This document shows positions 54,315 to 57,191 of a stretch of 64,000 nt of DNA, in pieces. The DNA is from Planobacterium oryzisoli. GTDB taxonomy: Bacteria; Bacteroidota; Bacteroidia; Flavobacteriales; Weeksellaceae. The position numbers and the translations under genes are program-made. Below the pieces are notes generated by a model that did no database searches, was not told where the DNA came from, and saw nothing but the letters and a program-made list of their open reading frames with translations. Location of the stretch: the NCBI RefSeq assembly GCF_015354315.1, contig NZ_JADKYY010000006.1:1-64000 (forward strand). Direction: 5' to 3'. Position 1 is the stretch's first letter; each line of letters begins with the position of its first letter.

Positions 54315-55865
54315 TTATAGATCGAACTTAATGCCCTGGGCCAGTGGGAGCTCAGGCGAATAATTAATAGTATTGGTCTGACGGCGCATATAGTATTTCC
54401 AAACATCGGAGCCGCTCTCGCGTCCTCCGCCCGTTTCCTTCTCGCCGCCAAAAGCACCGCCTATCTCTGCACCTGAGGTGCCTATATTCACGTTGGCAAT
54501 ACCGCAGTCTGAACCTTTATGCGAAAGAAACAGTTCGGCCTCCCTTAAGTTCTGCGTCATGATAGCAGAGGAAAGTCCCTGAGGAACATCGTTATGCATG
54601 GCGATCGCCTCAGAGAGTTCGCTGTATTTCATTACATAGAGAATCGGAGCAAACGTCTCGTGCTGGACGATCTCCATGTGGTTCTCCACCTTGGCAATGC
54701 AGGGCTTAACGTAGCATCCTGAACTGTATTTCTCCCCGGAAAGCACACCTCCTTCTACAATAAATTCTCCTCCCTGTGCTTTGCAGGCCTCAATGGCCTT
54801 GGTGTACTGCGCTACGGCATCAGTATCGATAAGTGGCCCTACATGGTTGCTTTCGTCCAGTGGATCTCCGATCTTAAGCTGTCCGTACGCCTTTACAAGC
54901 CGCTCTATCACCTGATCGTACACGTCCTGATGAATAATAAGCCTACGGGTCGAGGTGCAGCGCTGACCGCAGGTACCTACCGCTCCAAAGACCGCTCCAA
55001 TAATGGCCATATCGATATCGGCCTGATTAGAAATAATGATGGCATTGTTTCCGCCTAATTCCAGAATGGATTTGCCAAAGCGACCTGCTACTTTCATGCC
55101 CACTTCCCTTCCCACGCGCGTAGACCCTGTAAAGGAAAGTAGTGCGCAGCGGGGATCTTCCACTAGTGCGGCCCCTACCTCATGACCCGCCACCAGTACG
55201 CTGGAAATCCCTTCGGGCATATTATTTTCTGAAAGGACCTCCTGGATTATTCTCTGGCACGCCAAGGCGCAAAGACCCACCTTTTCCGATGGTTTCCAGA
55301 CGGTGACGTTTCCACAGATCCAGGCCAGGGCGGTATTCCAACTCCATACGGCCACCGGGAAATTGAATGCCGATATAATCCCCACCACTCCTAAAGGATG
55401 GTACTGCTCGTACATGCGGTGCAAAGGCCTTTCGGAATGCATGGTAAAACCGTGAAGCTGCCTGGAGAGCCCCACAGCAAAATCACAGATATCGATCATC
55501 TCCTGCACTTCTCCCAGCCCCTCCTGAAGACTCTTTCCCATCTCGTAGGAAACCAGCGTGCCCAGGTCCTGCTTTTTCTGGCGAAGTTTCAAACCAAACT
55601 GACGTACCAGCTCCCCACGCTTTGGGGCGGGCATCATCCGGAATTCCAGGAATGCCTCACGGGCCTTTTCCATGACCTCTTGGTAGTTTTCCATACTTGC
55701 GGTGCGTATACGCGCAATTGCAACGCCATCGACCGGGGAGTAGCTGGTTATTTCCTCTCCTGAGGCAAAGAAATCACCTCCGGTGCTCACACCCAAATTT
55801 TCAGGCTCAATCCCTAAGTTTTTAAGTACGTTTTTAATCGTTTCGCTTGGTTGTTTTTCACTCAT
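54315..55865 (-). CDS. amaB: Aldehyde dehydrogenase, probable piperideine-6-carboxylate dehydrogenase
   Basis: The 516-residue ALDH7-type enzyme has the active-site Cys in GTCGQRCTSTRR, the general base Glu in LELGGNNAI and the NAD motif FTGSTRVGREVG. Position next to lat and ALDH7 similarity point to oxidation of the lysine-derived aldehyde to 2-aminoadipate. Betaine-aldehyde or other ALDH roles are alternatives. It is the first gene of the pair; no clear promoter was found in the gap to the his operon. Confidence 0.9.
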   Translation of the reverse strand: MSEKQPSETIKNVLKNLGIEPENLGVSTGGDFFASGEEITSYSPVDGVAIARIRTASMENYQEVMEKAREAFLEFRMMPAPKRGELVRQFGLKLRQKKQDLGTLVSYEMGKSLQEGLGEVQEMIDICDFAVGLSRQLHGFTMHSERPLHRMYEQYHPLGVVGIISAFNFPVAVWSWNTALAWICGNVTVWKPSEKVGLCALACQRIIQEVLSENNMPEGISSVLVAGHEVGAALVEDPRCALLSFTGSTRVGREVGMKVAGRFGKSILELGGNNAIIISNQADIDMAIIGAVFGAVGTCGQRCTSTRRLIIHQDVYDQVIERLVKAYGQLKIGDPLDESNHVGPLIDTDAVAQYTKAIEACKAQGGEFIVEGGVLSGEKYSSGCYVKPCIAKVENHMEIVQHETFAPILYVMKYSELSEAIAMHNDVPQGLSSAIMTQNLREAELFLSHKGSDCGIANVNIGTSGAEIGGAFGGEKETGGGRESGSDVWKYYMRRQTNTINYSPELPLAQGIKFDL

Positions 55866-56088: not shown

Positions 56089-56121
56089 TTGCATAGTATT
56101 ATAAAACTTTTTATACATTTG
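56089..56121 (+). promoter_or_regulatory. his operon promoter
   Basis: TTG (56089-56091), 22 bp, then TACATTTG (56114-56121) fits the Bacteroidota -33/-7 consensus. The leader ATG lies 21 bp further on. No other start signal is seen between the divergent ALDH gene and the leader. Confidence 0.6.
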
Positions 56122-56142
56122 TGTTCTGAAACAAAACAGAAC

Positions 56143-56199
56143 ATGAATAATCTTACTGCATTACATCATCACCATCATCTCACCCCTAAGGCGAGTTGA
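56143..56199 (+). CDS. His operon leader peptide
   Basis: This 18-codon frame encodes MNNLTALHHHHHLTPKAS, with five consecutive histidine codons (CAT CAT CAC CAT CAT, 56164-56178), then TGA. Histidine-rich leaders let ribosomes stall when charged tRNA-His is scarce. The frame lies between a promoter and a terminator just before hisG. The coding role is supported by position, though the peptide itself has no other function. Confidence 0.92.
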   Translation: MNNLTALHHHHHLTPKAS

Positions 56200-56232
56200 T
56201 AGGACTGTGCAGTTAAGTACAAACACTATAAT

Positions 56233-56263
56233 AAACCGTCTTAGAGTCTAAGGCGGTTTTTTT
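56233..56263 (+). terminator. Intrinsic terminator of the his attenuator
   Basis: AAACCGTCTTAG (56233-56244) and CTAAGGCGGTTT (56248-56259) form a 12-bp stem with one wobble and a 3-nt loop, followed by T's. It lies 70 bp before hisG. Confidence 0.9.
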
Positions 56264-56333
56264 GTGCCCATTCCAACATCAGTCCCCTATACTCTTAAGA
56301 CGGTAGCAATTAAAAAAAATTAAAACACTACCC

Positions 56334-57191
56334 ATGAGTAATTTAAAACTGGCCATTCAGAAAAAAGGCCGCCTGAACGAAAAATCCATAAGCCTCTTAA
56401 AGGAATGCGGCATTTCCTTTACAGACCTTTCCACGAGTCTAAAGACCACGGCACGCAATTTCCCATTAGAAGTGCTTTTACTTCGAGACGACGACATCCC
56501 ACAGTATATCGAACAGGGTATAGCCGATATCGGTATCCTGGGCCTGAATGAAGTACTGGAAAAAAACCGCAACGTCACCATTGCAAAGAAACTCGGATTC
56601 GGACAGTGCCGACTTTCCCTGGCCCTTCCCAAAGAGGCCAGCTATGATGGACCCCAGGACCTTGCCGGAAAGCGTATTGCTACCAGCTATCCCCTCATCT
56701 TAGAAAAATTCCTTGAAGAAAAAGGAATCCAAGCACAGATCGAACAGATTGGAGGAAGCGTGGAAATTGCACCGAGCATAGGCCTCTCCGAAGCTGTATT
56801 CGATATCGTCTCGACGGGTTCCACACTTCTTACCAACGGTCTTAAGGAAGTAGAAAAGGTATTGGAAAGCGAGGCGGTACTCATCTCCTCGCCGGCCCTT
56901 AGCAGCGAAAAAGAGGCACTACTTAACAAACTGCTCTTTAGAATTGATGCGGTCCTTGGAGCGCGCGAGCACAAGTACATCCTATTGAATGCACCTAATG
57001 CGGCCCTGGACCAGATCATCGAGCTGCTTCCAGGAATGAAAAGCCCTACGGTACTTCCCCTGGCCACCAGTGGATGGTCTTCGCTACACACCGTCATCCG
57101 TGAAGACAGCTTCTGGGAAATTATCGACGAGCTCCAACTTCTGGGTGCCGAGGGAATACTTGTCGTACCGATCGAAAAAATGATACGCTAA
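56334..57191 (+). CDS. hisG: ATP phosphoribosyltransferase (long form HisG)
   Basis: HisG makes phosphoribosyl-ATP, the first committed step of histidine synthesis, and is feedback-inhibited by histidine. The 285-residue length is the long form with a C-terminal ACT-like regulatory domain, so no HisZ is needed. Typical segments are LKLAIQKKGRLNEKSI, QGIADIGILGLNEV, and VSTGSTLLTNGLKEV at the PRPP site. It begins 70 bp after the attenuator. Confidence 0.97.
   Translation: MSNLKLAIQKKGRLNEKSISLLKECGISFTDLSTSLKTTARNFPLEVLLLRDDDIPQYIEQGIADIGILGLNEVLEKNRNVTIAKKLGFGQCRLSLALPKEASYDGPQDLAGKRIATSYPLILEKFLEEKGIQAQIEQIGGSVEIAPSIGLSEAVFDIVSTGSTLLTNGLKEVEKVLESEAVLISSPALSSEKEALLNKLLFRIDAVLGAREHKYILLNAPNAALDQIIELLPGMKSPTVLPLATSGWSSLHTVIREDSFWEIIDELQLLGAEGILVVPIEKMIR

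Follow-up and report, generated by a model that had tools for sequence, protein, structure and literature searches.

A histidine attenuator before the his operon of Planobacterium oryzisoli and, in many relatives, a downstream strand that may relay its terminator to the hisG start codon

The DNA analyzed here (the window, 64,000 nt, positions 1 to 64,000 of contig NZ_JADKYY010000006.1) carries a his operon, in which hisB is bifunctional according to NCBIfam. The features in and before the operon are listed in Table 1, where the numbered regions can pair with each other (pairings are written as 2:3, 3:4, and so on). The divergent neighbor on the minus strand (54315–55865) matches L-piperidine-6-carboxylate dehydrogenase (NF050084). 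At Rfam gathering scores, a tRNA is the sole match within the window.

Table 1. Positions of the features in and before the his operon of the window
Feature	Start	End	Strand	Basis or remark
Candidate −33 element, TTTG	56088	56091	+	Sequence; consensus from general background
Candidate −7 element, TACATTTG (TAnnTTTG)	56114	56121	+	21 nt upstream of the leader ATG
Leader peptide ORF, MNNLTALHHHHHLTPKAS and stop	56143	56199	+	Sequence; 18 codons, five of them His
Sensor, five His codons	56164	56178	+	Sequence
Region 1, partner of region 2 without a ribosome on the leader	56172	56184	+	Minimum free energy (MFE) structure
Region 2, antiterminator strand, CCTAAGGCG (copy 1)	56185	56193	+	2:3 duplex, −10.5 kcal/mol
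Region 3, terminator left arm and loop	56234	56247	+	Partner of region 2, 4, or 5
Region 4, terminator right arm (copy 2) and U-run	56248	56263	+	Sequence, folding
Region 5, ACTCTTAAGACGGT	56291	56304	+	13 pairs with region 3, one bulge
Region 6, hisG start, ATGAGTA	56334	56340	+	GAGTA with TACTC (56290–56294), 5 bp
his operon, hisG-hisD-hisC-hisB-hisH-hisA-hisF-hisIE	56334	63262	+	NCBIfam matches above the curated cut-off

The leader ORF has 18 residues with five consecutive His codons, and the initial annotation of this leader is correct to the base. The motif CTAAGGCG was re-extracted at both positions given there, 56186–56193 and 56248–56255, the latter within the right arm of the terminator. 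The left arm CGTCTTAG (56237–56244) fits either copy, as had been claimed, with one G-U pair in each case. The intrinsic terminator is located between the leader and the his genes at about 56232–56263 and consists of a hairpin with a 12 bp stem and a U-run. In the predicted MFE structure, the His-codon strand forms the 1:2 hairpin with copy 1 at 56172–56203. The 141-nt RNA from 56130 to 56270, whose folding had been suggested as a check, gives −35.7 kcal/mol with a z score of −4.20, and none of 200 shuffles is equally good. An exact 8-mer common to the leader and the remainder occurs in ~12% of composition shuffles, so the comparison with relatives is the evidence that counts. The 8-nt repeat by itself is unremarkable, and the conserved layout is what exceeds chance.

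We collected 191 hisG loci from relatives and named genomes, of which 190 were placed. L121, whose hisG start was not found, was dropped. The features that assign the window's element to the ribosome-mediated attenuators recur in this set. A leader rich in codons of the end product, that is, a short His-rich ORF upstream of hisG, is found in 173 of the 190 loci, some of which are near-identical. An intrinsic terminator before the biosynthetic operon, with the his genes next to it, is detected by the filter in 162 of these 173 loci. Leaving out near-identical loci and the 11 leader-bearing loci without a terminator by the filter gives 155 distinct loci. An antiterminator using the left arm of the terminator is also found: in 110 of the 155 loci (7.75 expected), the 2:3 pairing is better than in dinucleotide shuffles at p ≤ 0.05, and in 56 it is so at p ≤ 0.01. 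The counterevidence named in the initial annotation, a lack of conservation of the His run or of the repeat among relatives, did not appear. The window and its relatives support an ordinary leader-peptide attenuator, classical by its layout. By this comparison of sequences, a histidine-sensing RNA switch before the his operon is evidently real and widespread among the relatives.

The 17 hisG loci without a His-rich ORF include L025 and L074, of which one is cut, with just 104 nt of upstream sequence, and the other begins at the end of a contig. In another of the 17, L169, the His run is shorter, and three more come from genomes of 0.6 Mb that are taken for reduced endosymbionts from their size alone. 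Five loci in genomes of ~0.6 Mb (L186, L187, L188, L325, and L326) have a terminator-like hairpin before hisG and no His-rich leader by the filter; these hairpins are possible relics of attenuation. In two loci of Bacteroidales MAGs (L081 and L091), hisG is preceded by a tandem pair of short His-rich ORFs, possibly double attenuators.

The promoter consensus of Bacteroidota is TTTG/TAnnTTTG. In 107 of 154 loci, a TAnnTTTG box lies no more than 45 nt before the leader ATG, while shuffles give an expectation of 5.1, and its distance to the leader start is about 17 nt at the median in the relatives (56114–56142 in the window). The 5′ UTR of the leader is thus likely to be short, judging from the box position. 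A Shine-Dalgarno (SD)-like motif precedes the leader in just 7 of 154 loci.

The effect of the ribosome position on the choice of fold was modeled with an assumed 30-nt footprint and an assumed transcript start, the RNA being cut just before the right arm. In the window, the left arm is paired upstream with a mean probability of 0.98 when the ribosome sits on the first or the middle His codon; the value is 0.73 for the last His codon, 0.21 for the stop codon, and 0.67 when no ribosome is present. The corresponding medians over the 155 loci are 0.87 (first), 0.87 (middle), 0.78 (last), 0.10 (stop), and 0.19 (none). In 148 of the 155 loci, with these assumed footprints, the antiterminator probability for a ribosome on the middle His codon exceeds that for one at the stop codon by over 0.05. 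The proposal that a ribosome stalled on the His codons leads to the antiterminator and a ribosome at the stop to the terminator therefore holds computationally. The probability of 0.67 without a ribosome in the window, against the median of 0.19, indicates that its 1:2 hairpin would be a weak guard.

The region downstream of the U-run should be noted. The initial annotation described a complete element ending at 56263 and a simple two-way switch. The switch parts and, computationally, the attenuation logic stand, whereas the boundary does not, since the element extends to the hisG start at 56334, and the description is incomplete, since the 1:2 hairpin and a fifth strand downstream are also present. 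This fifth strand, region 5, is absent from the initial annotation and was noticed from the raw leader sequences. It ends 29 nt before the hisG ATG in the window. The 3:5 duplex there is calculated at −17.9 kcal/mol, with a z score of −6.8 against shuffles. Region 5 finds its partners in the inner part of the left arm and in the loop and thereby uses letters left unpaired by the terminator.

Compared with dinucleotide shuffles, 78 of the 155 loci reach p ≤ 0.05 for the 3:5 pairing (7.75 expected); a stricter count (p ≤ 0.02 and at most −8 kcal/mol) gives 73 loci, and in 77 of the 155 region 5 is not detected by the shuffle test. The distance from its last paired base to the hisG ATG is 14–21 nt in 72 of the 78 loci, with a median of 17. 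Named hisG loci with region 5 are those of Epilithonimonas, three Myroides, Cryomorpha, and Paenimyroides, and five MAGs (L036, L068, L078, L087, and L098) also have it; the Chitinophaga hisG loci tested are without it. In one leader-bearing locus without a terminator by the filter (L022), region 5 is visible by eye. Among 13 loci fetched after the criteria were fixed, mostly from already sampled genera, 10 have a leader and a terminator, 8 pass the 3:5 test (spacing 14–18 nt), and a 5:6 helix of at least 7 pairs is present in 7 of those 8.

An alignment of regions 3 and 5 was made from 61 of the 78 loci (those that have the usual arm motif and are not identical in letters; the window is not among them). 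In these rows, 96.3% of cells pair, and sliding by 1–3 columns lowers the value to 24–44%. The rows were picked for passing the 3:5 test, which inflates the percentage paired, but not the coincidence of changes on the hisG tree. On that tree (56 rows), changes in 3:5 partner columns coincide at 0.72, compared with 0.25 for other column pairs (permutation p = 0.0003). Two loci that look like chance matches (L163 and L168) are within the 78 and the alignment and were omitted from the tree test. Doubly changed cells number 56 against 15.9 in shuffles (0/500), and pair types are exchanged across rows, for example, CG/UA and UA/CG/AU. Pairs with a change on both sides are a weak measure, as 67 of 500 shuffles reach the observed value. 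Like the leader, the terminator, and the 2:3 pairing, the predicted 3:5 pairing is demonstrated by comparison across loci.

We applied the same test to 82 trpE, thrA, and ilvD loci of the relatives. Only 1 of the 46 testable loci (L209) passes p ≤ 0.05 where 2.3 are expected; the other loci of the 82 have no terminator by the filter or too short a stretch. Region 5 as a general feature of Bacteroidota attenuators was rejected from this chance-level result. Leaders of other kinds were seen at these loci. Trp-run leader ORFs with terminators are located upstream of trpE in most relatives (L244–L273); the WWW leaders occur in most of the 30 trpE loci, including that of the window's own genome (L271), and two loci (L246 and L248) have two such leaders in tandem. 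Thr-rich short ORFs precede thrA in five loci (L215, L217, L218, L219, and L223), and Ile/Val/Leu-rich short ORFs precede ilvD in another five (L192–L195 and L210); the thrA and ilvD ORFs likely belong to further attenuators in Flavobacteriales. The loci suggest a wide native set of attenuators in Bacteroidota, for his and trp, and less often for thr and ilv.

In most of its loci, region 5 is also complementary to the hisG start codon and codons 2–3. The starts in the 78 region-5 loci read ATGAGTA in 54 (ATGAGTAAA in 42), ATGAACA in 8, and ATGAGCA in 2, and TGAGTAA is found in the arm and loop of the terminator in 37 of the 78. The hisG start thus shares letters with the end of the arm and loop, typically TGAGTAA, which makes region 5 complementary to both. 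A candidate for the start-covering structure expected of a dual-control system is a predicted 5:6 helix including the start codon. It reaches at least 6 pairs in 66 of the 78 loci and 7 or more in 50, whereas the window's own helix is weak compared with relatives (−5.4 kcal/mol). The mean 5:6 energy is −8.1 kcal/mol, compared with −6.0 kcal/mol after permuting region 5 among the loci (0/200 permutations as low), −3.3 with hisG starts taken from loci that lack 3:5, and −3.0 with the following stretch of its own hisG. In the alignment, 88.2% of 5:6 cells are paired, and 39 cells are doubly changed against 15.3 in shuffles (0/500). Two of the five measures, changes on both sides (327/500) and pair types (116/500), are not above shuffles, and the hisG tree test gives 0.47 against 0.28 (p = 0.02), a modest support.

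Nine loci have region 5 of the TGTTC type, and their hisG starts are ATGAACA in eight and ATGAGCA in the ninth, while ATGAACA is found in none of the 78 region-5 loci beyond this type. This concerted change is the most telling observation for 5:6; all nine loci are in the window's family, so it may represent one or two events. Region 5 and the start motif also occur together: the motif is present in 63 of 73 loci with region 5 and in 2 of 18 without, where three loci (L140, L166, and L172) were scored positive for region 5 by eye, though below threshold. On the tree, this co-occurrence comes down to only 3 independent pairs (p = 1). A looser count of 85/98 is not used for any claim, since 7 contiguous pairs including G-U are reached by chance. 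In four loci (L138, L166, L315, and L316), region 5 fits the hisG start (9–12 bp) better than the mismatched terminator arm, and in L316 the pairing spans the whole ATG; this hints that 5:6 is maintained on its own. Conversely, six loci (L146, L165, L170, L173, L180, and L182) keep 3:5 at −10.4 to −12.7 with 5:6 of only −2.1 to −4.1, in a subclade with GACAA loops. The persistence of 3:5 where 5:6 hardly exists suggests that 3:5 may have another role. Taken together, these comparisons lend moderate support to the pairing of region 5 with the start codon.

A relay can be drawn from these pairings. Charged His-tRNA would be sensed by the ribosome-mediated attenuator to control hisGDCBHAFIE. A ribosome at the leader stop would cover region 2, so that the 3:4 terminator forms and RNA polymerase halts, and a ribosome stalled on the His codons would leave region 2 free for 2:3 and allow the polymerase to read through. 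With 3:4 formed, region 5 would not be used by region 3, and 5:6 would mask the hisG start codon, keeping a leaky transcript silent. On the antiterminated path, region 5 would take region 3 from region 2, with the loop as a foothold, giving 3:5 and an open start codon. One terminator arm would then set both transcription, by read-through, and translation, by exposure of the start codon. In this scheme, the sequence of steps and both the existence and the direction of an effect on translation are inferred.

The folding models agree in part with such a relay. In the 78 loci, the median pairing of hisG positions +1 to +9 with region 5 is 0.83 when 3:4 is formed and a ribosome is at the leader stop, against 0.00 when 3:5 is formed, and this pairing is at least 0.4 in 62 of the 78 loci in the model states. 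When the states are imposed on the full-length RNA with no ribosome bound, 3:5 lies below 2:3 in energy in 76 of 78 loci, and 3:4 lies below 3:5 in 71 of 78. Since 3:4 is the more stable, the open (ON) state must be reached and held kinetically. In the window, the pairing of positions +1 to +9 is 0.53 with 3:4 formed and 0.51 with 3:5 formed, so that start-codon pairing would change little there; a wider stretch around the hisG start opens from 0.41 to 0.63. On these models, the window, with 5 bp and a 29-nt spacing, is a poor example of the start-codon part.

An attenuator with a relay through region 5 is the best explanation, to which we assign a probability of roughly 0.58. A plain attenuator of the E. 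coli his/trp type, in which region 5 serves mRNA stability or opening of the terminator and exerts no control over the start codon, is a possible though doubtful alternative. Every part of such an attenuator is present, 3:5 is retained in loci with a weak 5:6, the window itself has a weak 5:6, and about half of the loci (77/155) are without region 5 by the shuffle test; however, this reading gives no reason for the covariation of region 5 with hisG codons 2–3 or for the narrow 14–21-nt spacing to the ATG. The bare two-way switch of the first reading was demoted to this rival, as it leaves region 5 unexplained.

Pairing in trans, by which the loop of a released, terminated leader RNA would bind region 5 of other hisG mRNAs, would leave the same sequence pattern as pairing in cis, and a trans-acting attenuator RNA and peptide, rnTrpL/peTrpL of Sinorhizobium, set a precedent (PMC7298713). 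Such action is improbable here, because each read-through mRNA has its own region 3 nearby and the arm is buried in the stable stem of the terminated RNA. Still less probable is a DNA inverted repeat, made of regions 3 and 5, that is bound by a protein. The arms are indeed inverted repeats with a partly conserved core in the alignment, but this core varies with compensation (GTA, ACA, GCA, GTAC, and GTAT types), which a protein site would not need and which disfavors this candidate, and the repeat extends into the terminator loop. 

In many relatives, the terminator appears, from the comparison of loci, to decide through the extra strand also whether the hisG start codon is covered or free. 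A narrower proposal for Flavobacteriia has about an even chance of being right. In it, the arm and loop of the terminator mimic the hisG start codon, and region 5, which must choose between the two, would close the start when the terminator hairpin forms and open it upon antitermination. If true, a terminator hairpin doubles as a translation signal by start-codon mimicry where SD masking is unavailable, and an amino-acid attenuator has a built-in translational relay in bacteria with almost no SD-like motif at their leaders. The element would also be a compact and mutable system in which to test how RNA decisions are made kinetically.

Attenuation by leader peptides is a textbook case studied mainly in Proteobacteria. 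In enterobacterial his and trp leaders, alternative 1:2, 2:3, and 3:4 pairings choose between termination and read-through. The element described here shares with them (RF00514 His_leader) the ORF with regulatory codons, the 1:2/2:3/3:4 alternatives, and the terminator before hisG, and differs in its one-antiterminator layout, the absence of an SD sequence before the leader, and the added region 5. The RF00514 model gives 34 bits on the window, under its gathering score of 49, and one match (36.5 bits) among 20 relatives. In the trp operon of Bacillus subtilis, the RNA-binding protein TRAP acts on one leader for both termination and the start of trpE translation. One leader would likewise serve both levels here, with a leader peptide as the sensor in place of a protein.

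According to the available part of one paper, no leader-peptide system had been shown by 2010 outside Proteobacteria and Actinobacteria, the ermC case aside (PMC2965389). His attenuators of Firmicutes are known, and attenuators exist with a structure covering the ribosome-binding site in place of a terminator (PMC9413887). For Bacteroidota, leader-peptide-like ORFs have been noted in Bacteroides thetaiotaomicron (PMC7366714), and the available text of a paper on their his genes mentions attenuation once, for enterobacteria, and no leader (PMC8305728). We found no Bacteroidota his attenuator and no relay of this kind in the open-access literature; subscription papers may list such leaders. The Bacteroid-trp motif (RF01692) is a candidate cis-regulatory RNA of Bacteroidetes (PMC2864571), which we infer from its name to be linked to trp genes. 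As far as that description goes, it differs from the element here, which is a his element, and the WWW leaders before trpE in the relatives are without the 3:5 strand by the test. The nearest dual system is the yxjB leader of B. subtilis, where stalling on a leader peptide prevents both an intrinsic terminator and a start-covering structure; tylosin is sensed, an SD-sequestering hairpin and NusG-dependent pausing take part, and the authors report finding no overlapping antiterminator (PMC6851288). The relay proposed here would likewise couple the terminator with masking of the start. Unlike the yxjB leader, as described there, the arm and loop here resemble the start codon and would compete with it for one strand.
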